Shown piece after piece: positions 4,409-21,122 of a stretch of 64,000 bases of DNA; position 1 is the stretch's first letter, and every line of letters begins with the position of its first letter. Position numbers and translations under genes: made by a program. The stretch is from Planctomycetota bacterium (lineage in GTDB: Bacteria > Planctomycetota > Planctomycetia > Pirellulales > PNKZ01), in assembly GCA_018242585.1 (NCBI GenBank), contig JAFEBQ010000050.1, positions 1 to 64,000 of the forward strand, read 5' to 3'. The notes beneath the pieces were generated by a model that was not told the origin of the DNA, did no database searches, and worked only from the letters and a program-made list of their open reading frames with translations.

Positions 4409-4520
4409 GGCCCTGCCGCTTCGTCAGGCGGCAGCGGACCAACTCGGAACGGTCTGAGTGGCCGAACCTCGGCGGCTCGCGGAGTGTCTATTACAACTGC
4501 CCCTGCCGGCCGGTTTTCGC

Positions 4521-4526
4521 TATACT
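4521..4526 (+). promoter_or_regulatory. possible -10 box upstream of thrS
   Basis: TATACT lies about 114 nt before the thrS start. No good -35 is seen at the usual spacing, so only the -10 element is proposed. Confidence 0.3.
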
Positions 4527-4639
4527 TTCCGGCTTACGGTGGGTTGGCTGCTGGTGTTACGGACTGGGACGCCCTTTGTATCGGCGTCGCATCGGCGGCA
4601 ACGACAACTCATCGCTGGCACCAGTTAGGCGCGCCATTC

Positions 4640-6643
4640 ATGCTTTCGGTCAAGTTGCCCGACGGATCGACCAAGGAATATTCCCGTCCCGTTCGCCCGC
4701 TCGACGTCGCCCAGGAAATCGGTCCCCGGCTGGCCAAGGCCGCCGTGGCCGCGGTCGTCAATGACCAAACGGTCGACATGACCACCCCCCTGCCCGCCTC
4801 GGGCCAGGTGGAGCTTAAGCTCCTCACGCGCAAAGACGCCGAGTCGTTGCGGATCATGCGTCACTCGTGCGCCCACATCATGGCCCGCGCCGTGATGCGC
4901 TTGTATGACGGCGTGCAACTGGCGTTCGGGCCGACGATCGAGAACGGCTTTTACTACGACTTTGAATTGCCGCACAAGCTGACCGAGGAAGACTTCCCAG
5001 CCATCGAAGCCGAGATGCGCAAGATCATTAAGGAAGACGAACCGTTCGAGCGGATCGACGTCCCCCGCGCCGAAGCGATCAAGATTTGCGACGACCTGAA
5101 GCAGACCTTGAAGGTCGAGCACATCAACACCGGGCTCGTCGATCAGGCTTCGCTGTCGTTCTATCGCCAGGGCGAGTTCCTGGACCTGTGCCGCGGGCGC
5201 CACATCCCGAGCGCTAGCTTCGTCGGCGAGTTCAAGCTGCTGAGCGTGGCCGGCGCCTATTGGAAAGGGGACTCCTCGCGTCAGCAATTACAGCGTCTGT
5301 ACGCGACCGCTTTCTTCACCAAGGAAGAACTCGAAGCTCATCTCAAGCTGGTCGAAGAGGCCAAACGGCGCGATCACCGCGTGCTGGGCAAGGCGCTCGA
5401 ACTGTTCACTATCAACCCGATGGTGGGGCAGGGGTTGGTTCTGTGGCTGCCGCGCGGCGCGATCATCCGCAGTATTCTCGAAGGCTTCATTCGCGACGAG
5501 CTGTTCCGTCGCGGCTATGACCCGGTCTACACACCGAACATCGGCCGCGTCGAACTATACGAGACCTCGGGGCATTTCCCTTACTACTCGGACAGCCAGT
5601 TCAAACCGATCGAGATGGAAGAAGGCGAGCGGTATCTGCTGAAGCCGATGAACTGCCCGCACCATGCCATGATCTACCAGTCCAAGCCGCGCAGTTATCG
5701 CGAGCTGCCGGTGCGGTTGGCCGAGTTCGGCACGGTGTATCGCTATGAGAAGTCGGGCGAGCTTGGCGGCATGACCCGCGTGCGTGCGTTCACTCAGGAC
5801 GACGCGCACCTGTTCTGCACTCACGACCAGGTGGCCGATGAATTCCGCGGCTGCCTGGAAATGACCCAATACGTGTTGAAGACGCTGGGGCTGACCGACT
5901 ATCGCGTGCGGCTTGGCTTCCGCGATCCAGCCAGCAGCAAGTACGTCGGCTCGGCCCAGGTTTGGAACCAGGCCGAGCGCGAACTAGCCGATGTGTGCAA
6001 GAACCTGGGCATCGATGCCCAGGCCGAAGCGGGCGAGGCGGCGTTCTATGGACCGAAAGCCGACTTTGTGGTCACCGACTGTCTGGGACGCGAATGGCAG
6101 TTGGGGACCGTGCAGCTTGACTACAACTTGCCCAGTGCCGAGCGGTTCGCGCTCGAATACGTCGGCGCCGACAACACGATGCACCGTCCGGTGATGATTC
6201 ACCGCGCGCCGCTGGGGAGCTTCGAACGCTTCATCGGTGTGCTGATCGAGCACTTTGCCGGAGCGTTTCCGTTGTGGCTCGCGCCGGAACAGATGCGAGT
6301 GCTGACTGTCAGCGAAAAGTCCGAAGAGTACGCCCGCAAGGTCGAAGCCCGACTGCGGCAAGCCGGTTTTCGCGTGTCGGGGGATTACCGTAGCGAAAAG
6401 CTCGGCTCCAAGGTGCGCGATGCCCAGCTTCGGCTGGTGCCGTACATGTTGGTCATTGGCGAACGCGACGCCGAGGCGGGCACGGTTAGTCTGCGCGATC
6501 GGATCGAGGGGGATCTGGGGGCCATGCCGATCGAGCAAGCGGTCGCCCGGCTACAGGCCGAGGTGGCCGAGCGGCGAATCCGCCAAGTGGCGAAGATGGG
6601 GGGCTCGGCCTTCGGCGACCGCCAGTCGGAAAACGCCTATTAA
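4640..6643 (+). CDS. thrS: threonyl-tRNA synthetase
   Basis: A 667-residue class II aminoacyl-tRNA synthetase that charges tRNA-Thr in the cytoplasm. The ATG at 4640 gives [14 protein letters not shown], the normal beginning of the TGS domain; the open frame extends further upstream but without family resemblance. Domains in order: TGS (1-65), editing domain with HSCAHIM (75-81) and later LCRGRHIPS, the catalytic core with [10 protein letters not shown] (zinc and active-site region) and [12 protein letters not shown], and a C-terminal anticodon-binding domain ending near residue 645. All expected motifs are intact and the length fits the family. infC follows, a common bacterial arrangement. 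No T-box leader is recognisable. Confidence 0.97.
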
Positions 6644-6919
6644 GAGGCGTTTCGTTGACGGTCGCTTGTTCTGGTCCACGCTAACCGGCGGCTTACGCTA
6701 CGGGCTGCTAGGGACAAGCACGTACCGTGCTGTCGCACGGGGCACTATCGCGCCCCGTTGAAGGTCGCCCCGGAAATCGCCGGCCCGGCCCACATTTTTG
6801 TCGGGTGGCGGTTGACGGTCGCCCGACGCGTACCCGATACTGAAGTATTAGGCATCGTCGCGGCGTTCGCGGCAGCCGGTGATACCCAACTTATTGAGTT
6901 GTTTTGCAGTTCAGAGTGT

Positions 6920-6924
6920 AAGGA
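6920..6924 (+). promoter_or_regulatory. Shine-Dalgarno site of infC, deciding an AUC start
   Basis: AAGGA ends 8 nt before an in-frame ATC at 6933. No ATG, GTG or TTG is placed correctly relative to this site. Confidence 0.7.
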
Positions 6925-6932
6925 CGTTTACG

Positions 6933-7433
6933 ATCGAACGGTCTCAGAGGGTCAACGAACAGATCCGCATTTCTCCTGTGCGTGTGATTGCCGCCGACGG
7001 CGCTCAGTTGGGCATTATTCCCACCGATCAAGCGCTGAGTTCGGCTCGCGAAGCGGGCTTGGACCTGGTCGAAGTGGCGCCGAACGAGCGGCCCCCCGTG
7101 TGCCGCATCATGGACTTTGGCAAGTTCAAGTACCAACAAAAGAAGCGGCAGCACAAGGCCCACACGCACCAGACCAAGATCAAGGAAATCCGCGTTCGCC
7201 CCAAGACCGGCGAGCACGACATCGAGGTCAAAGTCACGCACGCCCGCGAGTTCCTGCTGCATAAAGACAAGGTCATCGTGTCGGTCGTGTTCCGCGGCCG
7301 CGAGTTGGCCCACATCGAAGAAGGCCAGCGCGTCGTTCGCCAGGTGATCAAGAACCTGGAAGACGTCGCCAAGGTCGAGTCCCCCCCCAGCCAACAGGGG
7401 AAGCGGATCATCTGCGTCCTGGCACCGAAATAG
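6933..7433 (+). CDS. infC: translation initiation factor IF-3
   Basis: IF-3 binds the 30S subunit, prevents 50S joining and checks start-codon pairing. With the proposed ATC start the protein has 166 residues, and its beginning, [11 protein letters not shown], lines up with the Bacillus IF-3 start (SKDQMVNEGIR), itself read from AUU. A GTG at 6879 would add 18 residues that fit no IF-3. The N-domain carries [11 protein letters not shown] and [18 protein letters not shown]; the linker [12 protein letters not shown] follows; the C-domain has [13 protein letters not shown] and [10 protein letters not shown]. Rare start codons in infC are the known basis of its autorepression by IF-3, so the same control is inferred here. 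rpmI and rplT, which often follow infC, are not downstream. Confidence 0.93.
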
Positions 7434-7463
7434 GTCGGACGCGTAGACAGGTATCTCCAATAG

Positions 7464-7487
7464 ATCCAGGGCTTTCATCTCCTGGAT
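7464..7487 (+). terminator. possible hairpin after infC
   Basis: ATCCAGG and CCTGGAT form a 7-bp stem with a 10-nt loop about 30 nt after the infC stop. There is no T-tract, so termination is uncertain. Confidence 0.3.
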
Positions 7488-7520
7488 ACTTCGCACGCGG
7501 CTAATGGCCTGCCTATTCGT

Positions 7521-7594
7521 CCGTCATTCCCGCGCAGGCGGGAATCTAGAGATTGGGTCGCGCGCCTAGATTCCCGCCTGCGCGGGAATGACGG
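7521..7594. repeat. perfect 29-bp inverted repeat (dispersed palindromic element, copy 1)
   Basis: Arms 7521-7549 and 7566-7594 are perfect reverse complements of 29 bp around a 16-nt spacer. The core is ATTCCCGC...GCGGGAAT. A related copy lies at 30704-30773. This type of palindrome is a known dispersed, non-coding repeat in many proteobacterial and environmental genomes. It sits between infC and the secretion operon. Confidence 0.9.
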
Positions 7595-7703
7595 CAGGGG
7601 AACCGCCTTGCCACCCATTGAATTGCGCACTGGACCCACGGGTGAAACCCTTGGCCTTGAGTGCCGTAGTCGAACGTAAACCGCTGCCCTGCCCCGTTTT
7701 TCG

Positions 7704-7733
7704 TTGACAGTCGCGCTTTTCGGCTAGTAGAGT
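7704..7733 (+). promoter_or_regulatory. candidate sigma-70 promoter of the pilM operon
   Basis: TTGACA (7704-7709) and TAGAGT (7728-7733) are separated by 18 nt. The -35 is a perfect consensus and the -10 matches four of six. The implied 5' leader to pilM is about 275 nt; no convincing ORF or riboswitch was recognised in it. Confidence 0.5.
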
Positions 7734-8014
7734 GGATGGTTGCGGAACGAGAGGTGTCACCGCGCCACGCACGCGCCTTGCGCGGCTGTTGCCGATCGTT
7801 GACTGGCCGCCGGTGTATCGAGCGCCGCTGTCCGCGCGCATCGACTGTTGCGCGCTGTCAACTCACGGCGAGCGATGCGCATGCGCCCAGGCCGCCGGGT
7901 CACGCCGGCTTGCTGATCGTGACACCGCGCCGACGGGCGATGGTCCTGCTCGGCAGACGAAACTTATCGCGCTGTTTCAGCGCCCAATTCATACGAACCC
8001 GCTAGACGATTGCT

Positions 8015-10138
8015 ATGGCAAAACAGGTCGCAACCTGGGGCATCGACATCGGCGACTCCGCGCTCAAGGCGCTACGCTGTGTCCCCAACGAAGACGGTAG
8101 CCACATCACCGCCGTTGCCTTCGACTACATCGAGTATCCCAAGCTGCTCAGCCAGCCCGATGCCGATCGCAACGAGTTGGTCGTGGAAGCGCTCAAGCAG
8201 TTTCTGTCGCGCAATTCGGTTCGCGGCGATCGGGTGGTGATCTCGGTTGGTGGCCAGGCCGGCCTGGCCCGGTTTATCAAGTTGCCGCCGGTCGAGACCT
8301 CGAAGATTCCCGACATTGTCCGTTACGAAGCCCGACAGCAGATCCCCTTTCCGTTGGAAGATGTCGTCTGGGACTTTCAGCAACTCAGCGGCGGCATGGC
8401 CACCGAAGGGTTCGCGCTCGACTCGGAGGTGGGCTTGTTCGCGATGAAGCGCGACCAGGTTTACAAGTATCTCAAGCCGTTCGACGACGTCGACGTGGAA
8501 GTCGACGTCATCCAGTTGACGCCCGAGGCGCTGTACAACTACGTCGTCTTCGACCAGTTGACCAACCTGCCGCCGCCGGACGAATACGACCCCGACAACC
8601 CGCCCGACAGCATCGTGGTGATGTCGCTGGGGACTGAATCGACCGATCTGGTGGTGACCAATGGGTTCCGTATTTGGCAGCGCAGCGTGCCGGTCGGCGG
8701 CAACCACTTCACCAAGGCGCTGGTCAAAGACCTGAAGATGAACTTTGCCACGGCCGAACATCTGAAGCGGAATGCCGCGCAGGCCGAGGATCCCAAGGCG
8801 CTGTTCCAGGCGATGCGCCCCGTGTTCAACGATCTGCTCTCCGAGACGCAGCGCTCATTGACCTATTTCAAGAACAACATCGATCGCAAGGCCAAGATCA
8901 GCCGCATTCTGGTTCTTGGCAACGCCATCCGGTTGCCGGGCCTGCAAAAGTTCCTGGCCCAGAATCTGGGTCACGAGCTGGCCAAGGTGGAAAGCCTGCG
9001 CGGGCTAAGCGGCAGCGGCGTGATCGACCAGCCCGCCTTCCGCGACAACCTGCCGGCGTTTGGCGTCTGCTACGGGCTGGCGCTGCAAGGCTTGAGCAAA
9101 GCGCGGTTCAACACCAACCTGCTGCCCCCCGAGATCATCCAGTTCCGCAAGATTCGGGCCAAGAAGCCGTGGGTGGCGCTGGCGGCGTCGCTGATGTTGA
9201 TCGGCTTTGGCGCTAGCTTCTTTATGTGGTCCGAGGCGCTCAAAGCCGTCTCGCTCGATCCGCCGCAGGGAGATCAGTTTTCGACGTTTCGGAAGCCAAT
9301 GGATAACGCAAACAGCGTGATTAACGACGCGGCTAAATGGCAGAAGGAATTTGAGGAGAACCGGGCCGCGTTTGTCAAAACCGATGAAGTGGGTCAGAGC
9401 ATCGTGCAAAACGTGATGCACCGGGACACCTGGATGCAATTGTTGCGGGCGGTCAATCTCTGTCTGCCGCGCAATGCCGGCGAACGCCCCAAGGAAGAAA
9501 TCAAGCTGCGCGACGAGATCAAGATCGACAGCTTTGACTGCCGCTTTGTCCCCAAGCTCGAGGAGTGGTACGCCGCTCATCACAAGCCGGCCGTTCCCGC
9601 GCCGGGCGCGCCTTCGATGGACGGCTCGCAACCGGGCGAGCAGCCGCCGCCTGACCCGAACGCCGACCCCAACGCGCAGCAGCCGGTGCCGACCGCGCCG
9701 ACCGACGCGGGGCCGACTGGCCCAGGTTGGGTGATTCAGATCACGGCGCACCATTATCGAAACATTCGCAGTGAGCCAGCCACGAACCAGGGGGCCAACT
9801 TCCTTCGCCGGACGCTGATGAAGAATTTGGAACAAGACACCGTGCCCATTCCCGACAGCGAACGCAAGGAAGGTGATCCACCGCGGTTCCCGGTGAAAAA
9901 GCTGGGCATCACTTACCCGTTGTTGATGGGCGACGCCGCCATCGACTGGAACTACAAGCTGACGATCCCGCAGGGGGATGGCGGCGACCATGGCGCCGGC
10001 GGCGGTGGTCAGGCCCCGCCGCCCAAGATCGTCGAGCAGCCGCGTTATGACTTCAAGGTGCAGTTCTGCTGGCAGCCCTTCAAGCCCGCCGAGTCGGCCG
10101 CCAAGCCGGCCCCCGACGCCGCGGCCATGAACCAGTAA
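8015..10138 (+). CDS. pilM: PilM-like pilus/secretion assembly protein with GspL-like C-terminal extension
   Basis: A 707-residue protein. Residues 1-370 are an actin-like ATPase domain typical of PilM/GspL (phosphate motif GIDIGDSALK at 9-18, and IKLPPVETSKIPDIVRYE). A membrane segment follows at about 385-405. The rest, about 300 residues, would be extracytoplasmic, with a Pro-rich linker near 525-572. PilM itself is normally about 350 residues and soluble, so this looks like a PilM-PilN or GspL-type fusion that ties a cytoplasmic ATPase-fold ring to the inner membrane. It is the first gene of a four-gene operon ending in a secretin. No pilin, prepilin peptidase or motor ATPase is in the window, so pilus versus type II secretion cannot be decided. 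Confidence 0.85.
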   Translation: MAKQVATWGIDIGDSALKALRCVPNEDGSHITAVAFDYIEYPKLLSQPDADRNELVVEALKQFLSRNSVRGDRVVISVGGQAGLARFIKLPPVETSKIPDIVRYEARQQIPFPLEDVVWDFQQLSGGMATEGFALDSEVGLFAMKRDQVYKYLKPFDDVDVEVDVIQLTPEALYNYVVFDQLTNLPPPDEYDPDNPPDSIVVMSLGTESTDLVVTNGFRIWQRSVPVGGNHFTKALVKDLKMNFATAEHLKRNAAQAEDPKALFQAMRPVFNDLLSETQRSLTYFKNNIDRKAKISRILVLGNAIRLPGLQKFLAQNLGHELAKVESLRGLSGSGVIDQPAFRDNLPAFGVCYGLALQGLSKARFNTNLLPPEIIQFRKIRAKKPWVALAASLMLIGFGASFFMWSEALKAVSLDPPQGDQFSTFRKPMDNANSVINDAAKWQKEFEENRAAFVKTDEVGQSIVQNVMHRDTWMQLLRAVNLCLPRNAGERPKEEIKLRDEIKIDSFDCRFVPKLEEWYAAHHKPAVPAPGAPSMDGSQPGEQPPPDPNADPNAQQPVPTAPTDAGPTGPGWVIQITAHHYRNIRSEPATNQGANFLRRTLMKNLEQDTVPIPDSERKEGDPPRFPVKKLGITYPLLMGDAAIDWNYKLTIPQGDGGDHGAGGGGQAPPPKIVEQPRYDFKVQFCWQPFKPAESAAKPAPDAAAMNQ

Positions 10139-10202
10139 ACGAGCGAATGACCTGGCGACCGAGCATTAGCGACCAACGAACGCAAGCTGAAAGCGAAACG
10201 AT

Positions 10203-11639
10203 ATGGACAAGGTGAAGGTCTATCTCACCTGGCTGAAGCGCAATAACTTCTGGGTGCTCTGCTTCATCCTGCTGGCGACGGCAATTGTCTGCTGGAATAT
10301 GGCGACCAGCCAAGTGGAGGCGGATGTCCAAAAGAATACCAAGCAGATCAATGACGTGAGTTCACGTCTTCGCAGGTTGCAAAAACAGCAGAATCCAAAC
10401 GAGCGGTTTATCGAAGGCTTGAAAGCCGAGGATAAGAAGATTCGCGATCAGGCGTTGCGGGTCACCGAACTGGCTTACGAGACGCAGCACAAGCTGCTGA
10501 AGTGGCCGCTGCCGGCCGAAGTCGAAGCCATCGGCGAATTGAAGCTCAGCTCCAAGGAAGAAAAAGAGAATCACCCGCCCGGAGATCCTCGCGTCCCCGA
10601 GATCCCGATCGGCACGCGCGAAATCTATCAGAACCTGGTGGCCCAGCCGGAGATGAAGCGGATCATCGAAAAGGTGAAAATTCGCCGTGTGAAGCCGGCC
10701 GACAAGGGAGCCAATCCCAACGCGAACCCGAATCACCGTGCGCCGGCGGCCTTCACCGGGATTGTCACCTGGCCCGAGGACCAGTGGAGCACACTGCTCG
10801 ACCGCTATCGCATGGACATCACCCCTTCGACGGTGCGAGTCTATGTGACGCAGGAAGACTTCTGGGTCTTCGAGGCGTTGATCGACGTGATCCTGTACAT
10901 GAACCGGGACGCGACCGACCACTTGAACGCCGTGGTCCGCGGCGTTCAAAAGCTCGACGTGGCGCAGTGGGCCACGCTGGCGGCTCAGCAAGAACCGGGC
11001 GTTGATGTCATGCCCGTCGATGCCGACGCCGCGGCCGGCCTGCCCGGCGGTATGGGTGGCCCGCTGGGTGGCGGCGGAGCGTCGCCGCCAGGAATGCCCG
11101 GCAGCGAAGCTGAATACGTCAAGATTCCCGGCCAGAAAGGCGCGGCCGGCGACGAGAACAAGCTGAGCCCCGATGACCAGTTGATCGATGGCCGCTATGT
11201 GGACGGCGAGAACAAGCCCGTCCCGGCCGAAGCGGTGAAGACCACACCGCCCTTCAACGAATTCAAGCAGTTGCCGATCGTGATGCGATTGCAGATGGAC
11301 CAGCGCCGTGTGCCCGACCTGTTGGCGGCGCTGGCCAATTCGCCCGAGCCGAAGGCCTTGCCGATCGAAGTCCGGCAAGTGCGGATGTTCTTTTTGGACG
11401 TCGACCAGAAGGCCGATGCCGCGGGCTTGGGGGGCAACGCGATCGAGCAGCGAGCCGACCGCGGCCCGTATGATTGTGACGTCGAGATTCGTGGGATTGT
11501 GTACTTGTACAATCGGCCCGACGCGTCCAAGCTCGGCTTGGGCTCGGCGGCCACGCCGGCCAAGCGCGAGTTCGGCATTCCGGTGCCGTCGTCGGCCAGC
11601 GTGCCGATGCCGCCGATGAACTTCGATCAGCCGCAGTAA
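10203..11639 (+). CDS. single-pass membrane protein of the secretin operon (PilO/GspM-like position)
   Basis: A 478-residue protein with a short cytoplasmic N-terminus, one membrane segment at about 18-38 (FWVLCFILLATAIVCW), a coiled-coil stretch (ADVQKNTKQINDVSSRLRRL onward) and a large extracytoplasmic part. A Gly/Pro-rich linker lies near 278-305. No family was recognised with confidence. Membrane topology, coiled coil and position between PilM and the secretin match PilO/GspM-type alignment proteins, so that role is inferred. It starts 64 nt after the previous gene with only a weak ribosome-binding site. Confidence 0.75.
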   Translation: MDKVKVYLTWLKRNNFWVLCFILLATAIVCWNMATSQVEADVQKNTKQINDVSSRLRRLQKQQNPNERFIEGLKAEDKKIRDQALRVTELAYETQHKLLKWPLPAEVEAIGELKLSSKEEKENHPPGDPRVPEIPIGTREIYQNLVAQPEMKRIIEKVKIRRVKPADKGANPNANPNHRAPAAFTGIVTWPEDQWSTLLDRYRMDITPSTVRVYVTQEDFWVFEALIDVILYMNRDATDHLNAVVRGVQKLDVAQWATLAAQQEPGVDVMPVDADAAAGLPGGMGGPLGGGGASPPGMPGSEAEYVKIPGQKGAAGDENKLSPDDQLIDGRYVDGENKPVPAEAVKTTPPFNEFKQLPIVMRLQMDQRRVPDLLAALANSPEPKALPIEVRQVRMFFLDVDQKADAAGLGGNAIEQRADRGPYDCDVEIRGIVYLYNRPDASKLGLGSAATPAKREFGIPVPSSASVPMPPMNFDQPQ

Positions 11640-11669
11640 GACCAGCTTTGATGGAGCGCGGAACCTTTA

Positions 11670-11692
11670 GCCCCCGGTCAATGACCGGGGGC
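11670..11692. repeat. GC-rich palindrome between operon genes
   Basis: GCCCCCGGT and ACCGGGGGC form a 9-bp perfect stem around a 5-nt loop. It has no T-tract and sits within the secretin operon, so it is more likely a dispersed repeat or an mRNA-stabilising hairpin than a full terminator. A related element is at 25803-25825. Confidence 0.6.
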
Positions 11693-11727
11693 CTTGTGGC
11701 GCGAAGCCACCAGGGAGTCTCAATACC

Positions 11728-13353
11728 ATGAAGATGAAACTCAAGCTCGACTCGGCCCGCTTCAAAGGGTTTTTCATCGAGCACGGTGAAAAGGTGGCCC
11801 TGCTCATCGCGCTCGCCGTCTTGGGATGGCTGGGCTATTCGGCTTACCTGACGCCCATCTATGCCGAGAAGCCGGCGGATTTGGATCAGGACGCGGTCAA
11901 GATACGTCGTGTCATTAAAGATGCGCCTTGGGATCCCAAGCTCTACGACATCAAAATTCCCCAGCCCGAGTACCGCCAGCAAGCCGAAGTGGCGATGGTC
12001 ACGTTGGACCCGAATCGCTATGGCATGGGCATGTTGTGGAGCCCGCCGATCCGCGATCTGCGCGTCCGCCGCGTGGCCCCCACGATCGTCGCCGCCCAGA
12101 AGCTGCAAGCGACGTATCGCTTCTCGGCCGTGGCGATGAAAAGCGGCAAAGATGCGTACACTGGCCGTAACTGGATCGTGGTGACGGCGCTGCTTCCTTA
12201 CGGCGAGCAAGCCGCCGAGTATCGCAAGCTATTCGAGAATTGCTTGAATCCCGTCACGGGCGATTTTCCCAAGTACAACCAGGTGATGATCGAACGCGCC
12301 GAAGTGCCGCCAGGGGCCAAGGCCGATGCGCTGGAATGGAAGGCGCTCGACATGGCGGCCAACCGGGCCCAGCGCAAGGGGCTGGTCACCGGCGCCGACA
12401 GCGTCGAAAAGAAATTCTTCGACAAATACGTCGCCGAATCGTGCCTGCAACTGGTTGGCACCACGAACGGTCCCGAGGTGGCGCACGAGCCCGAGATTCC
12501 GTTCGTGGTTCCCGCGGCCGCCGACGCCAACAAGCCCGCCGCCCAGGCCACGCCGGGAGTCGATGACGACGCGCCGAAGAGCCTGCTCGAGGAAGAAAAG
12601 AAGCAGGTTGTTCAACATCAGCAGAATCAAGGCAATGAACCGCAAAAAGCCCTGATCGAAACTATCGATTACAAGCTGATTCGCTTCTTCGACTTCACGG
12701 TCGAGCCGAGCAAGGCCTACGCCTATCGCGTCAAGTTGCAATTGATCAACCCGAACCACGGGATGCCGCAGCATTTCTTGAAGAGCCCCGATCTGGCCGA
12801 GGCCCAGACGCTCGACTCGGCCTTCAGCGAGCCGAGCGAAACGGTCGCCATTCCCAGCCCGTTCCGCGTGGTGGGTGGCGACGTGACGCCGGCCCGCAGC
12901 CAACTGCAAGAAGCCAAGGGGCGCGTGATGATCGTCAAGTGGTCTCCCGAGCAGGGGGCCGAGGTGGCGCACGAGTTCACCTTGGAGCGGGCCGCGGTGT
13001 TGAATTATCGCGACATTTCCGCCCAGGTGCCCGTGCCCGGCAAGACGGGTGAATTCAAGGACGGGACGATCACTTACGAAACCGATTACGTGCTGGTCGA
13101 CGTGGCGGGTGGCGAGGACATCACCTCGCGCGAGAATAGCCAGCGTCGTTATCGCCTGCCCGGCGAGTTGTTGCTGTGGACCCCCACGGGCAAGTTGGCG
13201 CTGCGTGGTTCGATCGACCAAGGTGGCGACGCCGAGCGCAACCGGCCGCCGGTCAAGGCCAAGGAAGGAAAAGCCGCCGCCGACAAGGACGCCGATGGGC
13301 CAGGCGCGCCAGGAGGCGGCAAGTCGTTTGAAGACTTGATCAAAGGGAAATAA
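11728..13353 (+). CDS. single-pass membrane protein of the secretin operon, unknown family
   Basis: A 541-residue protein starting with ATG after a GGGAG site. The N-terminus is basic, the membrane segment is at about 23-41 (VALLIALAVLGWLGYSAYL), and the remainder is extracytoplasmic. There is a charged segment around residue 285-310 (DDDAPKSLLEEEKKQVVQHQ) and a Lys/Gly-rich end. I do not recognise a domain. Same topology and operon as the preceding gene suggests it bridges the inner membrane to the secretin, comparable in position to PilP or GspC, but this is inference from context only. Confidence 0.75.
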   Translation: MKMKLKLDSARFKGFFIEHGEKVALLIALAVLGWLGYSAYLTPIYAEKPADLDQDAVKIRRVIKDAPWDPKLYDIKIPQPEYRQQAEVAMVTLDPNRYGMGMLWSPPIRDLRVRRVAPTIVAAQKLQATYRFSAVAMKSGKDAYTGRNWIVVTALLPYGEQAAEYRKLFENCLNPVTGDFPKYNQVMIERAEVPPGAKADALEWKALDMAANRAQRKGLVTGADSVEKKFFDKYVAESCLQLVGTTNGPEVAHEPEIPFVVPAAADANKPAAQATPGVDDDAPKSLLEEEKKQVVQHQQNQGNEPQKALIETIDYKLIRFFDFTVEPSKAYAYRVKLQLINPNHGMPQHFLKSPDLAEAQTLDSAFSEPSETVAIPSPFRVVGGDVTPARSQLQEAKGRVMIVKWSPEQGAEVAHEFTLERAAVLNYRDISAQVPVPGKTGEFKDGTITYETDYVLVDVAGGEDITSRENSQRRYRLPGELLLWTPTGKLALRGSIDQGGDAERNRPPVKAKEGKAAADKDADGPGAPGGGKSFEDLIKGK

Positions 13354-13421
13354 GCTGAGCCGACACGCCATGGGCGTGCGCGCATCTCCGCGGAATTGCG
13401 GTTAAAACGCCAGCGTGATTG

Positions 13422-13449
13422 AAGCCGGGACTCAACTCTCGGCTTTTTT
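13422..13449 (+). terminator. possible weak terminator hairpin before the secretin
   Basis: AAGCCG...CGGCTT forms a short stem, followed by TTTTTT. It lies about 70 nt after the third operon gene and 490 nt before the secretin start, so it could uncouple the secretin from the upstream genes in part. Confidence 0.45.
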
Positions 13450-13924
13450 CATGCGCCGATCGACGGCACATCGCCGACAGCGTGGCTTCCCGCCTCCCTG
13501 CTCCCACTCCCCTGTCCTTGGCGCGTCAGCACGCCGAGTTGGATAAAGATTCTAATGATTCCGTCGCGAGTGACCTTGACCGGCTTTGCCGGCATCGGTA
13601 TTAACACCGCCTCTTGTCTGAACTTGTCCCTTGATCCGACCAACAGGTGAGCTCAAACGGCCCACGTTTTCCGGCGAAATTCAGCGGTTTTCGCTGAATC
13701 GACCTGGACAACGCGACCCCCGCCGCGCGGTTCACCGAACCTGCCGAACGACCCGTCAGAAAAATCTTGCCGGAAAAAAGTCCGGTCAGATTTGCGCTGA
13801 CAACAACGTCCCATCCTTTGCGTTGTCACGGTCGAGCGTCGCAGGCCAACCAACACCGAACACCCCCGCCCGCCGCACACTACGCCTGGCCGCAAGGCCC
13901 GGCGCGCAAGTCTACGCATCTCGA

Positions 13925-13930
13925 AAGGAG
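13925..13930 (+). promoter_or_regulatory. Shine-Dalgarno site fixing the secretin start at TTG
   Basis: AAGGAG lies 6 nt before the TTG at 13937. The translated sequence right after it is a good signal peptide, so this site defines the start although the open frame extends 306 nt further upstream. Confidence 0.75.
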
Positions 13931-13936
13931 ATCGGC

Positions 13937-16900
13937 TTGAACACCACGTCGCGATTCCTGCTTGGCTGCCTGGCCACTGGCGCGCTCGCCTTGAGCAGCG
14001 TCGTTTGGACCGGCATGCCCGCTCAAGCGCAGAACCCGGCGGTCGGCGTACCGTCCGAGGACGCGAACGAGGCGTTGGAAAACGAGTCGGTCGAGATGCG
14101 CCGCGTCAAGGTGCTCGACTTGTGCAAGCGCGCCCGCCAGGCGATGGAGGCCGGCAATTGGGAAACGGCCGACTCGCTGATTCGCCGCTCCGAGGCGTTC
14201 CAGGTCCGCTGGCCGGTGATGTATTTCGGCGACCGCCCCGAAAAGGTGCGCAAGGACTACCAGAAGGTGCGCGGCACGTCGGCTGGGCTGCCCAGCAAGC
14301 AATACCAGGCCAACAGCACCACGACCAGCACGCCCGACGCGCCGGTCGCCAAACACAACAGCAAGACCCCGACCGATCCATTCGCCGCCCAGGCGGCATT
14401 GGCCGCCCAGAACGAAGCCGCCCCCAAGGCCCCGTCGATCAACGACCCGGGCAGCCAGGCCAAGCAATGGCTGGCCAAGGGCCGCGCTGAACTCAGTCGT
14501 GGCAACGTCACCGGCGCTTCGCACTGGTATCAGAAGGCCGCCCAGGCCCAGACCACTTGGAATCCGAACGAAGACACGCCCGAGAAGTTGTTCGTCGACC
14601 TTCGCGCCGCCGGTGGCAAGGCGCCAGCCGCCGAGCCGATCGCGGCGAACCCGGGCGCCAACGCGCGCAATCCGGTCGCCGCCGGCAACAGCCCGTTCGC
14701 GCGCCCCGAGACGACCACGCCGCCGGCCGCCGACGACCAACTCCCCCCTGCCCTGCGCCGCGCGGGCGCAAACAACGCGCCGGCCACTGCCCAGGCCGCC
14801 CAGGCCAATCCGATGACGGCGCCGGTCAATCCGCCGTCCGCCCCCCCTGTCACGAATCTGCCCGCGGTGACACCCGCGTCGTTCAACGCGCCGCCGGTTG
14901 CCGCCGCGCCGACGACCGCTTCTTACCCGACGACGAATGTGCCGGCGACCGCTTCGCTGCCGACCACGGCCACTCCAAACGACACGGAAAGCCGCCGCGC
15001 GCAAAGCGACGGCTTGTTGTGGACCGCCCGCCGCGCGCTGGCGGTGGGCGATGTGCGCCGCGCCACCGAAGCGGTGAACCAGGCCAAGGCCTTGGCCGTG
15101 AACTATGACCCGCGTGAAGATTCGCCGGCCCGCGTCGAAGCGGCTGTCGCCAAGTTCGCCGACCTGGCCCAGCGTCCCGCCGGCGAACGTGACTCGGAAG
15201 GTTACCGTCGCCGCTACGCCGAATTGCAAATGCAGCAGGCCGACGACCTGCTCCGCCTGCGCGACTTTGACGAGGCCGAACGGCTGGCCACCGAGGCCAA
15301 GCGGCGCGGCATCATCTACTCGCCGTTCGAGAACAATCCGGACGATCTGCTGAAGCGGATCGCCGAAGCCCGTCGTGGCACGAACTCGCGCTCGATCGAA
15401 CCGTTGCCCAGCCCGACCGGGGCCCCGGTGACGATGACTCCGCCGGCCGCCGCCAACCCGACGGCAACTCCCGCGGCCACCAACGAACTGAAGCTCCGTG
15501 CGCAGAATCTGCTGCAACAAGCCCGGGTCGCCATGGCGGGGGGCGATTTGAACCAGGCCGAAGCCTTGGCCCAGGAAGCCGATCGGCTGCGCGTGCCCGA
15601 GGAATCGCTCGGCCAGCGTGACGACCGTCCCTGGCTGGTGTTGATGCAGATTCAAAAGGCCCGGCAGCAGCAAGCCACCGGCGGCGTGCAAAACGTCGGC
15701 GCCGTGCAGCCCGCCTCGGGCGTGATGCCGATTGCCGGCGCGAACGCGGCGTCGCAGGCATACTACGATCCGGCCACCGACGCGACGCACAATATGACCG
15801 TCGCCAACCAGCAACCGCTGACGACCGGCGCGTCGACACCGGCTGCTGGTCCGTCGAGTTCACAGAAGATCGGCGTGGCCTTGTTCGTGCAAGGTGAGGA
15901 GGCCTTGCGGCGCCACGATCCGAAGACCGCGGCGGCCCTGTTCCGCGAAGCGGCCACGCACCACGACGACCTTGACCAGCAAATGCAACAGCGGCTGCAA
16001 GATCGCCTGCAACTGACCGCCGGCACGGCGCCGTTGCCGACCACCCAGCCCAACGAAGCCAACTCGCTGATGCGCGAAGCCGCCCAGGGTCAGGCCCTGA
16101 AGCTGCGCCAGGCCAGCGACGAATTGAACCGCAAGATTTCCCAGGCCAAGCGCCTGCAAGAGTCGGACCCCAAGCAAGCCACCCTGGTCTTGCAACAGGC
16201 CCGCACCGAAGTGGAAAAGTCATCGGTCGATTCGAGCAACAAGGAAATGTTGCTCCGCCGCGTTGACCGAGTGAGCGACGAACTGGCCAAGTACCTCGAT
16301 GCCAATCGGCCGCGCATCGAGCTTGACGAAAAGAACCAAGCGGTCAAAGACGAGATCGCCCGCGAAGAGCAAGCCAAATTCGACATGCAGGACAAGCTGG
16401 CCAAAACGATCGATGAGTTCAACGAACTGATGGACCAGCGCCGCTTTGCCGAAGCCGAACTGGTGGCCAAGAAGGCCTTCGAGATCGCGCCGCGCGAACC
16501 GGTGGTGATGCAGGTCATGCGTCAGGCCAAGCTCGTGCGAAGCAACGAAAATGCCAAGGCGCTCCGCGAGGAAGGCCAGGACGGCTGGGTTCGCCAGATG
16601 GAAAGCATTCAAGAATCGGGCATCCCCTTTGATGACCGCCAGCCGATGCAGTTCCGCGACGCCAAGGAATGGAAGCAACTGAGCGAGACCCGCGGCGCCT
16701 GGTTGGCCCGACAGTCCAAGCGGAAGACCGAGCGCGAAATCGAAATCGAACAGCGACTCCGCACGCCGGTCTCGATGCAGTTCAAGGACACGCCGCTGCA
16801 AGAAGTGATGCGGCACCTGTCGAGCGTGACGGGTGTGAACATCTACCTCGATCCGCGCGGCCTGGCCGAAGAAGCCGTCGACAGCAGCACCCCGGTGACC

Positions 16901-18601
16901 ATCAGCCTGAACAGCGACATTTCGCTGAAGAGCGCGTTGCACCTGGTGCTCGATCCGTTGCACCTGAGCTTCATCATCAAGGATGAAGTGTTGAAGATCA
17001 CCAGCGAGCAAATGCGCGATGGCGAGGTCTATACCCAGACCTACAGCGTCGCCGATCTGGTGATTCCGATTCCGAACTTCGTGCCGAACGGGCAGATGGG
17101 CCTGGCCGGCGCGTTGGCCGACGCCCAGCGCAACGCCGGCGCGGCGGGCAACGGGCAAGGCAGCATGGCCGGCACCGGCGGCCCCATGGCCGTGGTCGCC
17201 AGCTCGAATGGCGGCTCGACCAATGCCGCGGTCAATCCCGAGGTGCTGGCCCAGTTTGGCGGCGGCATTCAGCCGATGGGCGGCATGTTCGGCCGCGGCG
17301 GCGCGACCGGTTCGCCCCAGAACATCCCCTTCGCCTCGCCGGGCGGATTGGGTGGTGGCGTGCAGCCGGACTTTGACTCGTTGATGGAATTGATCACCCA
17401 GACCATCGCGCCGCAAAGTTGGACCGAAGTCGGCGGCGCCGGCGCGATCAAGGAGTTCCCGACCAACTTGAGCCTGGTCATCAGCCAGACCCAGGAAGTC
17501 CACGAACAGATCGCCGAGTTGCTCGAGCAGCTCCGCCGCCTGCAGGATCTGCAAGTGACGATCGAAGTCCGCTTCATCAACCTGAGCGACACGTTCTACG
17601 AGAAGATGGGGATCAACTTCGACATTAATATTCCGAGTAATGTGCCGCAAAGCACGCTCAACAATCAGTTCACCACCGACGCCAACGGCAACCTGATCAA
17701 GACCGGCACGTTCAGCTACTCGAACTCGATTACTGGTGGTATGCAAAACTTGACCCAACCGACCAGCACGACAGGCGGTTTCTCGCCGGTGTGGACGAAC
17801 GACCTGAGCATTCCGTTCAATCAATCGAGCTTTAGCCTGACGAATCCAAACCTGTCGCAGTTCAACTTGCCCCAGTCGGGCGTGTTGGGCGGGGCCTCGC
17901 TCGGGTTTGCCATCTTGAGCGACATCGAGACCTACTTCTTCTTGCAAGCGGTGCAAAGCGACAGCCGCACCAACATCATGCAGGCCCCCAAAGTCACGCT
18001 GTTCAACGGCCAGCAGGCGTTCGTGTCCGACACGCAGCAGGTGCCGTTCGTCATCACGGTCATCCCGGTCGTCGGCGACTTTGCCGCCGCCCAACAACCA
18101 GTGATCGTCGTCTTGTCCGAAGGAACTTTCCTCACGGTCCAGGCGGTGGTGTCGAGCGACCGCCGGTTTGTCCGACTGACGGTGGTGCCATTCTTCAGCA
18201 ATATCTCGGCCGTGAACACCTTCACGTTCACCGGTTCGTCCAGCAGCACCCGTGACACTAGCACCACCGGTCCGGTGGGCGCCTCGACCAGCCAGAACAA
18301 TGTCGCGTCGGCCACGAACAACGGCACCACGGTGCAGTTGCCGACGTTCGCCTTTACCACGGTAACCACCACGGTCAGCGTGCCCGACGGCGGCACGGTC
18401 TTGCTCGGTGGCATCAAACGACTGGCCGAACAGCGGATCGAGAATGGCGTGCCGATCCTGAACAAGCTGCCCTACGTGCAGCGGTTGTTCAACAACATCG
18501 GCACCGGCCGCACGACGACTAGCCTGATGATGATGGTCACGCCGCGCATCATCATCCAGGAAGAAGAAGAAGCCAAACTGGGCCAAGGTTCCACGCCGTA
18601 A
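13937..18601 (+). CDS. secretin (GspD/PilQ family) with large repeat-containing N-terminal region
   Basis: A 1554-residue outer-membrane secretin that would form the exit pore of a type IV pilus or type II secretion machine. The TTG start gives a signal peptide (about 1-31, ending PAQAQ). The first 930 residues are unusual: five or six degenerate helical modules of about 35 residues (for example ARQAMEAGNWETADSLIRRS, ARRALAVGDVRRATEAVNQA and ARVAMAGGDLNQAEALAQEA), separated by Ala/Pro/Thr-rich linkers. A secretin N-domain follows at about 947-1030 (MQFKDTPLQEVMRHLSSVTG), then a Gly-rich spacer, then the secretin core at about 1200-1545 with VTIEVRFINLSD, TNIMQAPKVTLFNGQ and VPDGGTVLLGGI. Ordinary secretins have 600-750 residues. 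A strong terminator follows. Confidence 0.93.
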   Translation: MNTTSRFLLGCLATGALALSSVVWTGMPAQAQNPAVGVPSEDANEALENESVEMRRVKVLDLCKRARQAMEAGNWETADSLIRRSEAFQVRWPVMYFGDRPEKVRKDYQKVRGTSAGLPSKQYQANSTTTSTPDAPVAKHNSKTPTDPFAAQAALAAQNEAAPKAPSINDPGSQAKQWLAKGRAELSRGNVTGASHWYQKAAQAQTTWNPNEDTPEKLFVDLRAAGGKAPAAEPIAANPGANARNPVAAGNSPFARPETTTPPAADDQLPPALRRAGANNAPATAQAAQANPMTAPVNPPSAPPVTNLPAVTPASFNAPPVAAAPTTASYPTTNVPATASLPTTATPNDTESRRAQSDGLLWTARRALAVGDVRRATEAVNQAKALAVNYDPREDSPARVEAAVAKFADLAQRPAGERDSEGYRRRYAELQMQQADDLLRLRDFDEAERLATEAKRRGIIYSPFENNPDDLLKRIAEARRGTNSRSIEPLPSPTGAPVTMTPPAAANPTATPAATNELKLRAQNLLQQARVAMAGGDLNQAEALAQEADRLRVPEESLGQRDDRPWLVLMQIQKARQQQATGGVQNVGAVQPASGVMPIAGANAASQAYYDPATDATHNMTVANQQPLTTGASTPAAGPSSSQKIGVALFVQGEEALRRHDPKTAAALFREAATHHDDLDQQMQQRLQDRLQLTAGTAPLPTTQPNEANSLMREAAQGQALKLRQASDELNRKISQAKRLQESDPKQATLVLQQARTEVEKSSVDSSNKEMLLRRVDRVSDELAKYLDANRPRIELDEKNQAVKDEIAREEQAKFDMQDKLAKTIDEFNELMDQRRFAEAELVAKKAFEIAPREPVVMQVMRQAKLVRSNENAKALREEGQDGWVRQMESIQESGIPFDDRQPMQFRDAKEWKQLSETRGAWLARQSKRKTEREIEIEQRLRTPVSMQFKDTPLQEVMRHLSSVTGVNIYLDPRGLAEEAVDSSTPVTISLNSDISLKSALHLVLDPLHLSFIIKDEVLKITSEQMRDGEVYTQTYSVADLVIPIPNFVPNGQMGLAGALADAQRNAGAAGNGQGSMAGTGGPMAVVASSNGGSTNAAVNPEVLAQFGGGIQPMGGMFGRGGATGSPQNIPFASPGGLGGGVQPDFDSLMELITQTIAPQSWTEVGGAGAIKEFPTNLSLVISQTQEVHEQIAELLEQLRRLQDLQVTIEVRFINLSDTFYEKMGINFDINIPSNVPQSTLNNQFTTDANGNLIKTGTFSYSNSITGGMQNLTQPTSTTGGFSPVWTNDLSIPFNQSSFSLTNPNLSQFNLPQSGVLGGASLGFAILSDIETYFFLQAVQSDSRTNIMQAPKVTLFNGQQAFVSDTQQVPFVITVIPVVGDFAAAQQPVIVVLSEGTFLTVQAVVSSDRRFVRLTVVPFFSNISAVNTFTFTGSSSSTRDTSTTGPVGASTSQNNVASATNNGTTVQLPTFAFTTVTTTVSVPDGGTVLLGGIKRLAEQRIENGVPILNKLPYVQRLFNNIGTGRTTTSLMMMVTPRIIIQEEEEAKLGQGSTP

Positions 18602-18675
18602 GCCGACGGCGGCCCTGCCGCCGGCCTGGCGTTGAAGGGTTGGCCCGATCGAATTGCAAGCGACGTTCCCTCCGG

Positions 18676-18719
18676 CCGTCGTGGTTCCCTCCTCGTGGGG
18701 GAGCCACGACGGTTTTTTC
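18676..18719 (+). terminator. rho-independent terminator after the secretin
   Basis: CCGTCGTGG and CCACGACGG form the lower stem, extended by TTCCC/GGGGA, with a T6 tract at 18713-18718. It ends the secretin operon. Confidence 0.85.
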
Positions 18720-18737
18720 TTGCGCGCGGCGGATCGC

Positions 18738-18743
18738 TATAAT
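18738..18743 (+). promoter_or_regulatory. -10 box of the DUF423 gene
   Basis: A perfect TATAAT about 40 nt before the ATG at 18783. The -35 region at 17 nt spacing (TTTTCT) is poor and overlaps the preceding terminator's T-tract. Confidence 0.5.
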
Positions 18744-18782
18744 GGGGAGCGAATCGCCACGACCGTTGATCGAGGAACGAAT

Positions 18783-19184
18783 ATGACTCCCCGCATGTGG
18801 ATTGCCTTGGGGGCCGCGACCGGCGCGCTGGGAATCGCCCTGGGCGCTTTCGGCGCGCACGCCCTGCCCGGCTGGCTGACAAGTCAGGGACGCACTGCCG
18901 AGGCGATCGTTCGCGCCAGGGAGATCTTTGAAACGGCGGTGCGGTACCAGATGTACCAGGCGTTTGGCCTGGTGCTATTGGGGCTCTACGCCCTGCACCG
19001 CCCCGAGGGATCGGTCACGCTGCCCGGCGCGGCCATATTTCTGGGGATGTGCGTCTTCTCGGGCTTGCTCTACGCGCTGGTCATCACCGACGTGAAGGTG
19101 CTGGGGGCGATCGTCCCGATTGGTGGCGTGTTGATGATTGTCGGCTGGCTCGGTTGGGCCGTCAAAGCCTGGCTCGATCGCTGA
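18783..19184 (+). CDS. DUF423 family inner-membrane protein
   Basis: A 133-residue protein with four hydrophobic segments, of the DUF423 (YgdD-like) family. The hallmark is the N-terminal ALGAATGALGIALGAFGAHA, followed by TAVRYQMYQAFGLVLLGL and an end segment GAIVPIGGVLMIVGWLGW. GAGGAACGA before the ATG serves as ribosome-binding site. Family function is unknown. The length is normal for the family. It is monocistronic between a terminator and a convergent gene. Confidence 0.9.
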   Translation: MTPRMWIALGAATGALGIALGAFGAHALPGWLTSQGRTAEAIVRAREIFETAVRYQMYQAFGLVLLGLYALHRPEGSVTLPGAAIFLGMCVFSGLLYALVITDVKVLGAIVPIGGVLMIVGWLGWAVKAWLDR

Positions 19185-19187
19185 GCG

Positions 19188-19312
19188 AGAAACGATCAAC
19201 GATCAACGATGAATGAAAGGCACGAGAGGGATGATCGACGCATGGCGGTGGTGATTGGTTCAAGGTCACGCAACCTGCGCCGTTTATCGTTCATCATTTA
19301 TCGTTTCTCCCG
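19188..19312. repeat. inverted AACGAT-type repeats between convergent genes
   Basis: GAGAAACGAT with two further AACGAT units at the left is mirrored by ATCGTT repeats and ATCGTTTCTC at the right. The same AACGATGAACGAT word occurs at 25756-25780. The pair could act as a bidirectional end signal, but the loop is long. Confidence 0.5.
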
Positions 19313-20586
19313 AAGATGAGTTCGGTATTGTCGCGCAGCACTTGCGTGCCGAGCGCCAACGCCCGGTCTTCGCTCCAGCCCCGGTCGACGACGAACTTCT
19401 CGGCCAGCACCTTGGCGAGTGTCCGCTTGTACATGGCGAACTTCGGCAGCGCGAACTCCAGCTTGTACATGTCGCTGTAGTAGCCGATCTGCTTGGTCCG
19501 CGGCACCGCTTCCAGTCGCGAAGCCAGATCGTGCTCGATGAACGTCGGCGTGTTCGAGTACCACCAGTGGCCGTTGGTCACCACGTTCGGGAAGATCCAG
19601 CTATAGCTGGTCAGTTCCTGATTGGTCACGCTGGCCAGAACCGAAATCGGGAACGTCACCTGCGGAAAGGCGTTGAACAGCTCGCGGTATTGAATCAGCG
19701 ACACTCGGCTGTCGTACAGGTCTTGTCCCTGGTAAACGCCCGCCGGATAGACCTGGCGATTGACGCCGATCATCAAATCGAACGGCAACTTGTACTCGGC
19801 GCAATACTCGGCCAGCGTCCAAAAGACAAAGTGCGACACGGTGCGTCGCGGGTCGTCGAACGTGTGACTCCCCTGCTTTAACACCGATTGTAGCGCCGGC
19901 CCTGCGTCGGCCTCGCTCACCTTGGACGGAGCGAAATCAGGCGGCAGCGAAATGGCGCAGGCCTTGGCTCCCTTGGCCACAAAATGGGCGAACAGCTTGC
20001 CGATTGCTTCCTTCAGTTGGGCCACCGTGCCAACCGCGATGCCCGTCGCTTTTTCCAGTCGAGCACGCACCTCGGACTTGGCCAAATGGAACACCAGATC
20101 ATCAGTCCGCAGACAGGGGATATAGACCTTGGTGTCGAACCCGGTCAGCGGATCGTCGAAGTCGTTGGTTAAGAATACCGCCGACAGGCGGCTTTGCTTC
20201 AACACCTGGTTGGCCCAATCGGGCGAGCTCATCTTCTTGACCGCGCCGTCGTACAACGCTTCCCAGTTCTTCATGGTCAGCCGGTCGTCGGCAAAGCCGA
20301 AGAACTCGCGGGCTAGTTCGATGAACCAACTGTATTGAATCGTGTTGTCCAGCGGCCCCATCCGCTCGACCAGCCGGCGAACTTTCTCCTTGGGGTCCAG
20401 GCCGGGTTCTTCGATCCGCGCCTTGGGCATGCCGGCCGAGTGGGCCAGTTCGGTGTAGTAGTGATAGCCCAGGATGTCGGCCACCGTCTGCGACGCCGGC
20501 GCGTGCGGGTTGATATGCGTGTGCGGATCGACAATCGTCAGGGCATTCAACTCGGCAAACAACCGATCTCGTAAAGCTTGCGACAT
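19294..20586 (-). CDS. uronate (glucuronate) isomerase family protein
   Basis: A 430-residue protein of the UxaC-like branch of the amidohydrolase superfamily. The metal-binding HxH is in VDPHTHINPH (His22, His24) near the N-terminus. Later features are TNDFDDP, VTNGHWWYSNTP and IGYYSDMYKLEFALPKF, typical of planctomycete uronate-isomerase-like proteins. Classical UxaC interconverts D-glucuronate and D-fructuronate and is about 470 residues; this one is somewhat shorter and may act on a related sugar acid. No other uronate-pathway gene is nearby. It is convergent with the DUF423 gene. Confidence 0.8.
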   Translation of the reverse strand: MSQALRDRLFAELNALTIVDPHTHINPHAPASQTVADILGYHYYTELAHSAGMPKARIEEPGLDPKEKVRRLVERMGPLDNTIQYSWFIELAREFFGFADDRLTMKNWEALYDGAVKKMSSPDWANQVLKQSRLSAVFLTNDFDDPLTGFDTKVYIPCLRTDDLVFHLAKSEVRARLEKATGIAVGTVAQLKEAIGKLFAHFVAKGAKACAISLPPDFAPSKVSEADAGPALQSVLKQGSHTFDDPRRTVSHFVFWTLAEYCAEYKLPFDLMIGVNRQVYPAGVYQGQDLYDSRVSLIQYRELFNAFPQVTFPISVLASVTNQELTSYSWIFPNVVTNGHWWYSNTPTFIEHDLASRLEAVPRTKQIGYYSDMYKLEFALPKFAMYKRTLAKVLAEKFVVDRGWSEDRALALGTQVLRDNTELIFGRNDK

Positions 20587-20675
20587 GGCGGCAATGGTCT
20601 CGTGTTGGAGATGAGTAGCTAACGGGACAATTCAAATTCAACCACGACGACATGGCGCAAACGCCAAGAAATTTG

Positions 20676-20774
20676 CACCACGGAGACACAGAGATCACAG
20701 AGAGGACAGAGAGGACAAACAGCACAGTTCTTTCTGTTCTCTGTGTCCTCTGTGTCCTCTGTGCCTCTGTGGTG
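20676..20774. repeat. long imperfect inverted repeat of CACGGAG/CACAGAG type
   Basis: CACCACGGAGACACAGAG at the left is mirrored by CTCTGTGCCTCTGTGGTG at the right, with short repeats such as AGAGGACAG and TGTCCTCTG between. Shorter relatives are at 30557-30590 and 34255-34298. It fills the gap upstream of the isomerase gene. Confidence 0.8.
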
Positions 20775-21122
20775 AATTCCCTCTCTGATGCCTTGACGTC
20801 GTGTGGTCGTGGTTGATTGCTTGGCTTCACGAACCGAAGGCAGGCGATAGCTGTTTATAAGGCTCGGCCAGCCCGGTCGCAATTGGCCGGCAATGTCGGC
20901 AACCATGCTTAATGGCTGAATCCAAAACAACTTGCATCCCCACCCCTGCTGAAAAAACCTTGACACTTGCGGCCCGGTTTGGTTCGATGGAGTCCTGACC
21001 CTCCGGCCGCGAACTCCAGCACCGCCCTCCCCTGCGAACGAAACGATCGTCGCAGCGGTCCCGCCTGCGGTGGCCTGACCCCCGGACTGCCCGCCTTCCG
21101 GTTTTGTCCGAGGAGTTTGCCG

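Follow-up and report, generated by a model that had tools for sequence, protein, structure and literature searches.

The window analysed here, a stretch of 64,000 nucleotides from a Planctomycetota bacterium (contig JAFEBQ010000050.1 of assembly GCA_018242585.1), carries four genes on the forward strand at positions 8015-18601, and the question is what kind of envelope machine these genes encode. Their long open reading frames were confirmed, and the genes are separated by gaps of 64, 88 and 583 bases. Each of the products of genes 1, 2, and 3 has one strongly hydrophobic helix by hydropathy, near residues 387, 16, and 23, respectively. Most likely, the set is a pilM-N-O-P-Q operon in canonical order, in which two of the five pil slots have been fused and two others have been altered almost past recognition. 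The first-pass annotation, made from the letters alone, had described a protein of GspL-like layout, in which the actin-like PilM domain is joined to a periplasmic part that spans the membrane, as well as two middle proteins that cross the membrane once and belong to no recognised family, and an oversized secretin. All of these descriptions were borne out, the middle proteins having no match at any curated family cut-off. None of the four proteins reached the cut-offs of the PilN, PilO, and PilP profiles, so the clear profile matches that the annotation had named as its refutation were not found. The features are as follows.

8015-10138, +, gene 1, putative PilM-PilN fusion, 707 aa (PilM_2, NF045709, PDB PilM chains)
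8015-9091, +, PilM actin-like domain, residues 1-359 (profile, PDB PilM chains, 5eou alignment)
9116-9127, +, NLLP, residues 368-371, corresponding to the N-terminal peptide of PilN (alignment with 5eou)
9173-9229, +, gene 1 membrane helix, about residues 387-405 (hydropathy)
9230-10135, +, gene 1 periplasmic PilN-like part (hhalign against the PF05137 PilN set)
10203-11639, +, gene 2 (X), predicted Amuc_1100/PilO-type inner-membrane subunit, 478 aa (AlphaFold2, Foldseek, VIA-align, NF038287 in relatives)
10248-10304, +, gene 2 membrane helix, about residues 16-34 (model, hydropathy)
10830-11510, +, gene 2 core alpha-beta-beta-alpha-beta-beta domain, residues 210-436, with a low-confidence linker inside (model)
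11728-13353, +, gene 3 (Y), 541 aa, subunit with one membrane helix at the PilP position (gene order, AlphaFold2 model)
11794-11850, +, gene 3 membrane helix, about residues 23-41 (model, hydropathy)
12079-12861, +, gene 3 fibronectin-III-like domain in two halves, residues 118-378 (VIA fold comparison)
12862-13209, +, gene 3 second beta domain, residues 379-494 (model)
13937-18601, +, gene 4, large secretin, 1554 aa, TTG start (Secretin profile, PilQ TIGR02515)
14090-16036, +, gene 4 helical (TPR-like) repeats and low-complexity linkers, residues 52-700 (self-alignment)
17948-18553, +, Secretin domain, residues 1338-1539 (profile PF00263)

Ahead of the operon, positions 4484-7433 hold genes for threonyl-tRNA synthetase and initiation factor IF-3, recognised by eye, and no pilus island. 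Farther along the window (54803-61084, +), a 2093-aa protein with a TTG start shows, by eye, a Ser/Thr kinase domain, a membrane helix, and then leucine-rich-repeat-like and further repeat regions.

The fused PilM protein of gene 1

Residues 9-358 of gene 1 matched PilM_2 (PF11104) over its cut-off (E 8.4e-30), and the same profile was found in all 19 members of the gene 1 family alignment (A1). The model of the Amuc_1101 family, NF045709, matched residues 42-481 (E 4.9e-57, 194.1 bits), a score below its curated cut-off of 650 bits, so that gene 1 is a relative of the Amuc_1101 equivalog and not a member. Since this match reaches residue 481, the similarity to Amuc_1101 extends beyond the membrane helix.

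The N-terminal peptide of PilN binds PilM. In the crystal construct 5eou, in which PilM is joined to the PilN peptide, the NLLP of the peptide aligns with the NLLP of gene 1, and 82 of 115 members of the gene 1 family carry N[LM]LP in its strict form. The profile of residues 365-707 built from these 82 PilM sequences was compared by hhalign with the PF05137 PilN set, which comprised 27 of 30 loci (L235, L244, and L247 were omitted, as the match there yielded no clear reading). The two profiles aligned over 117 columns with a probability of 95.8% (E 7.6e-9). The aligned columns begin at NLLP, include the helix, and end where the PilN domain starts, leaving the rest of the periplasmic part uncovered. 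Against the same set, the X and Y families reached 8.45% and 5.34%, respectively. Most controls gave 0.2-16%; the PilM tail gave 49.6% against X and 38% against Y, which suggests a shared helix and composition. Since controls reached 49.6%, middling hhalign percentages carry little meaning here.

Judged by its sequence, gene 1 is a PilM-PilN fusion, because the fused part has NLLP and compares with PilN. It had been named a PilM-GspL fusion in the first-pass annotation; the GspL-like layout stands, but the fused part is PilN by both the motif and the profile comparison. At some phylum loci found with the PilN model (e.g. L222, L242, and L251), a PilM-like stretch lies in the same long frame, and therefore fusions of the PilM-PilN type are not unique to the window.

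The two middle subunits

The AlphaFold2 model of gene 2, built with 63 sequences (pLDDT 79.8), consists of a membrane helix, a coiled coil, and the core domain. The first-pass annotation had proposed that the predicted structures of genes 2 and 3 be compared with the PilN/O/P and GspC/L/M subunits. For gene 2, the predicted fold was nearest to Amuc_1100 in both searches. In Foldseek, the first three ranks went to chains of Amuc_1100 and the fourth to PilO; the probabilities were 0.98-0.99, but the E values were weak, at 1.3e-2 and higher (0.99 and 1.3e-2 for the top Amuc_1100 chain). VIA-align likewise placed Amuc_1100 at ranks 1-3 (Z 11.3, 10.5, and 10.5; 168-180 residues aligned), followed by PilO (2rjz, Z 6.6, rmsd 4.8, 126 residues aligned; 5uvr, Z 5.5) and, lower, by the periplasmic domains of GspL (XcpY, Z 5.3; EpsL, Z 4.8), with unrelated proteins appearing from about Z 5.

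At the level of sequence, gene 2 itself matched no family above chance; it had no match to the PilO profile and none to NF038287 (Amuc_1100) at E 1 or better. NF038287 matched 11 of the 63 members of the X family, more than any other model did (best E 7.9e-4). It also matched the family consensus with 25.3 bits (E 9.4e-6) over residues 22-101, which is the helix and coiled coil only, a region where chance matches come easier. Its curated cut-off of 180 bits was reached neither by gene 2 nor by the X relatives. In a distant relative, X' of locus L258, the match covers residues 119-342 (E 1.6e-5). When 199 whole genomes were searched with this model, 17 of them gave weak matches, 19 in all, and six of these matches could be placed beside a PilM gene; the model also matched in Bacillus subtilis. 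Comparison with sequence profiles of solved structures gave chance rows for both X, with PilO of 3jc8 at E 0.69, and Y. Overall, gene 2, with its helix, coiled coil, and ferredoxin-like domain, is best read from its model as the occupant of the PilO slot. Both middle proteins had been thought to belong to no recognised family and to be possibly planctomycete-specific. By curated cut-offs the former holds, but gene 2 has fold kin, and a model nearest to Amuc_1100 and PilO speaks against specificity. For gene 3, specificity is compatible with the searches, which found no family and did not extend to Verrucomicrobia.

The AlphaFold2 model of gene 3 (pLDDT 83.9) has one helix, a fibronectin-III-like domain, and a second beta domain. 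No family was found for it in any profile search, PilP included. In the fold search, fibronectin and antibody domains were returned at Z 7.9 or less (best row: 102 residues, rmsd 3.0), which is below the level that the tool calls clear; PilP and GspC were not among these rows, which were filled by a single domain, and their absence argues against neither. Distant proteins in the Y place also gave faint matches to the fn3 model (E 0.038 and 0.11).

Loci L258 and L261, which belong to another family, offer a point of comparison, since there the PilM gene is followed by X' and then by a Y' gene of the GspC/PilP kind. Y' matched NF041515 (GspC) with E 6.4e-8 in L258 and 3.7e-7 in L261, and TIGR03021 (PilP) with E 1.3e-5 and 2.4e-4, respectively. 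At both loci (8995-10997 in L258), the order is an Amuc_1100-like gene and then a clear GspC/PilP-type gene. The two clusters lie between the ordinary pilus operon and the type found in the window. When gene 3 was compared with the L258 protein by profile, the result was 24% and confined to the membrane helix, with the domains below 1%, and the comparison of the Y profile with PilP/GspC-type proteins of L278-L286 gave no useful match. The PilP profile itself matched in 6 of 199 genomes of the phylum, never over its cut-off, with only the best row (G190) placed in a PilM cluster. By gene position, Y may be the PilP equivalent. It may also be a replacement rather than a relative, since it shows no kinship with Y' of L258 beyond the helix and the Y place is empty at two phylum loci (L271 and L272).

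The large secretin and the conservation of the gene order

For gene 4, the best start is TTG at 13937, with aaaggag just before it and a hydrophobic leader after it; the mechanical call of the open reading frame is longer (1656 aa from 13631). The Secretin profile PF00263 matched over its cut-off (E 5.6e-23), and PilQ TIGR02515 (E 1.9e-25, below its cut-off) and GspD (E 2.9e-25) scored nearly equally. The match to NF042912 (Amuc_1098) reached 63.7 bits (E 8.9e-18), under the curated cut-off of 750 bits. In the N-terminal half, the best pair in self-alignment scored 81, versus 44-45 in three shuffles; the match to TPR_2 is weak (E 0.024). A fusion accident or mis-call was considered as the origin of the large size and was rejected, because secretins of similar length occur in the relatives: those next to Y in 17 class loci have 1119-1567 aa, and in all 14 genomes asked the best secretin-family match lies in a frame of 1123-1724 aa, whether or not it is adjacent to Y.

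Forty loci of the class were fetched from 50 X-bearing genomes besides that of the window, X being present in 51 of 118 genomes. PilM, X, and Y stand in the same order and on the same strand in 39 of these 40 loci, an arrangement far from chance; as the loci were chosen for holding X, this count informs on order and not on frequency. The fortieth has PilM and X and no Y on its stretch, which stops at a contig end. By the adjacency rule, the secretin follows Y in 17 of the 39 loci and is not adjacent in 22, L063 being counted among the latter although its secretin overlaps Y slightly. Of a set of 80 loci, 62 have an X frame and 55 a Y frame, and several of the rest are short. Two related genomes have a gene for a PilB-type ATPase some 3.6 kb downstream from the Y gene, behind housekeeping-looking genes (L074, 15733-17649; L082, 15851-17767).

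Across the phylum, the gene 1 family matched in 178 of 199 genomes, a number which includes matches to the PilM half only and is not a count of fusions. Among 20 phylum loci, PilM, X, and Y are side by side in ten (L263-L269 and L273-L275). In L270, L276, and L277, PilM is followed by further genes and the secretin, and in L271 and L272 by one gene (X) and the secretin. The secretin gene precedes PilM in L258, L261, and L262, and L259 and L260 are without PilM.

Partner motors, proposed working, and known systems

The first-pass annotation had noted that motor ATPase, platform protein, and pilins are missing. On the contig of the window this is correct, and PF00437 (motor ATPase) has no match there. 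Elsewhere in the genome, however, PF00437 matched ten times over five contigs, with a weak tenth match on contig C9, and contig C10 carries a cluster of pilB, pilT, pilB, and pilC followed by two N-methyl prepilins. Hence the genes are absent from the contig only, and the term 'minimal' was an overstatement. Both PilB-type ATPases of the C10 cluster have MshEN domains, the ATPase between them is PilT-sized, and the platform protein is T2SSF; an additional prepilin-like reading has no Pfam match, and neither PilM nor a secretin matched on that contig. Given the C10 cluster and the other PF00437 matches, a machine lacking motors and pilins was rejected. The genome also contains three shorter secretion-type ATPase matches, of the CpaF kind by length (C2, C32, and C26 at 34148), a PilT/PilB-like ATPase pair on C24, and six secretin places, that is, several such machines.

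One of these is an ordinary set on C26, with PilM (349 aa), a PilN-like protein (247 aa), a PilO/T2SSM_b protein (182 aa; T2SSM_b E 5.3e-13, PilO E 2.4e-6), a 224-aa protein, a secretin (822 aa), a GspE ATPase, and T2SSF. Since its proteins are separate, short, and recognised by profiles, the set of the window is a second, diverged one. Among the motor sets on C10, C26, and C24, complementarity alone points to the one on C10 as the likely partner of the four genes, a guess based on its having motors, platform protein, and prepilins without PilM or secretin, whereas C26 has its own full set. The co-occurrence with pilB, pilC, and pilin clusters, which had been proposed as a check, was found in the form of the C10 cluster; as PilT is present in 198 of 199 genomes, however, such co-occurrence proves nothing. 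All motor sets share one genome and the operon is tied to none, so that the four proteins could instead use the C26 motor (GspE/PilC), the C24 pair, or several motors. We regard this as unlikely, since the C26 set, with its own PilM, PilN, PilO-type, and secretin genes, needs no partner and C10 lacks PilM and a secretin.

Very probably, the products of the four genes are the trans-envelope alignment complex of a type IV pilus-like machine and its pore in the outer membrane. The observed basis is the gene order, its conservation, the domains of genes 1 and 4, and the predicted fold of gene 2. In the proposed working, the cytoplasmic actin-like part of gene 1 would lie next to its own PilN tail, followed by the PilN helix and periplasmic domain. 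We infer that the ferredoxin-like domain of gene 2 should pair with the PilN part of gene 1 and that PilM-N and the PilO-like X would form a ring around the platform protein. Gene 3, in the PilP place, would bridge this inner-membrane complex to the secretin. Gene 4 would be the PilQ pore, whose repeats may occupy the wide periplasm of planctomycetes. The platform protein, the pilins, and the motors for extension and retraction would come in trans, most likely from C10, and the C10 motors would drive the fibre through the gene 4 pore.

A type II secretion-like system (GspL-M-C-D), with a short pseudopilus and export of proteins via the secretin in place of a surface pilus, is a doubtful alternative. 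It would account for the GspL layout of the fused gene 1, for the GspL domains among the fold matches of gene 2, for the gene in the Y place of L258, whose best match is the GspC model, and for the nearly equal secretin scores of GspD and PilQ. Retraction motors, however, belong to pili, and the genome has PilT and the PilB-PilT-PilB-PilC cluster. Moreover, the family model of gene 1, like the nearest relatives of gene 2, is named for the pilus-like cluster of Akkermansia, and the self-contained C26 set could be the secretion system of this genome. It is very unlikely that genes 2 and 3 are new subunits, unrelated to PilO and PilP, of a different envelope machine into which PilM and a secretin were recruited: the lack of a curated family match, the member identity of about 20-30%, and the lack of a PilP-like signal in gene 3 would agree with it, but the fold of gene 2 and the conserved gene order speak against it.

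The gene set recurs through a phylum with poorly explained envelope biology, and its genes are named candidates for crateriform structures and fibres. Dextran is bound by the crateriform structures and pili-like fibres of Planctopirus limnophila and Gemmata obscuriglobus, and the connection of uptake with these structures is given there as the authors' speculation (PMC5394234). The distribution of the set, together with this published link of fibres, craters, and dextran, is the reason for proposing, as a long shot, that it is the trans-envelope body of the large crateriform structures, a pilus machine whose fibres would catch polysaccharides and pull them toward a wide secretin. With a similarly slim chance, gene 3 and the secretin repeats might be the press-stud link between the membranes in tomograms. 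PilQ-like genes of P. limnophila were deleted singly and growth was kept (PMC11958385).

In Akkermansia, Amuc_1100 is a surface protein known for immunomodulatory activity. The fold comparison places it beside PilO, the inner-membrane alignment subunit, and if this relation is true, the role of Amuc_1100 in its cluster becomes directly testable. Related pilus-like loci of Akkermansiaceae have been tied to glycan attachment (PMC13174399), and polysaccharide capture shared across the superphylum is therefore a testable idea. The kind of machine is already known, and the planctomycete variant is one for which no published description was found; the literature searched, mostly outside subscription journals, contained no description of the operon or of an Amuc_1100 relative in Planctomycetota.

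Among known systems, the C26 set of the same genome fills identical functional slots in an identical order, but with separate, short, profile-recognised proteins. The GspL-GspM-GspC set resembles the window genes in a PilM-like domain fused to a helix and a periplasmic part and in ferredoxin-like neighbours. It differs in that NLLP and the relatives of the window proteins indicate PilN/PilO and Amuc_1100, and gene 3 gives no GspC signal, whereas GspC-type proteins occupy that place in L258 and L261. With the type IVa pilMNOPQ set, the window shares the order of PilM-N, O-type subunit, P place, and secretin, the PilM with its NLLP peptide, and the location of motors at another locus. PilM, the PilN peptide and helix, a predicted PilO-type fold, and a secretin were all found, with motors, PilC, and prepilins elsewhere in the genome. 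The differences are the fusion of PilM and PilN, an O-type subunit without a PilO profile match, a fibronectin-III-like protein in the P place, and a secretin about twice as long.

In Akkermansia muciniphila, Amuc_1098-1102 are PilQ, Amuc_1099, Amuc_1100, the PilM Amuc_1101, and Amuc_1102 (MUL2 in PMC13174399), and a cluster with PilM, Amuc_1100, Amuc_1099, and PilQ has already been published (PMC5332112, PMC10688800, and PMC13174399). A prepilin-like gene corresponding to Amuc_1102 was not seen in or beside the four genes (list of open reading frames at 6000-21000, by eye), and the window proteins are below every Amuc equivalog cut-off. The likeness lies in a PilM of the Amuc_1101 kind with similarity past the membrane helix, in an Amuc_1100-like subunit by the predicted fold of gene 2, in the 907-residue PilQ described there with TPRs in its N-terminal part (PMC4960237), and in the locus numbering, which follows the same gene set (PMC5332112 and PMC10688800). 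Overall, the four genes most likely represent a known machine in a diverged form that occurs phylum-wide and is kin to the Amuc_1098-1101 cluster of Akkermansia.
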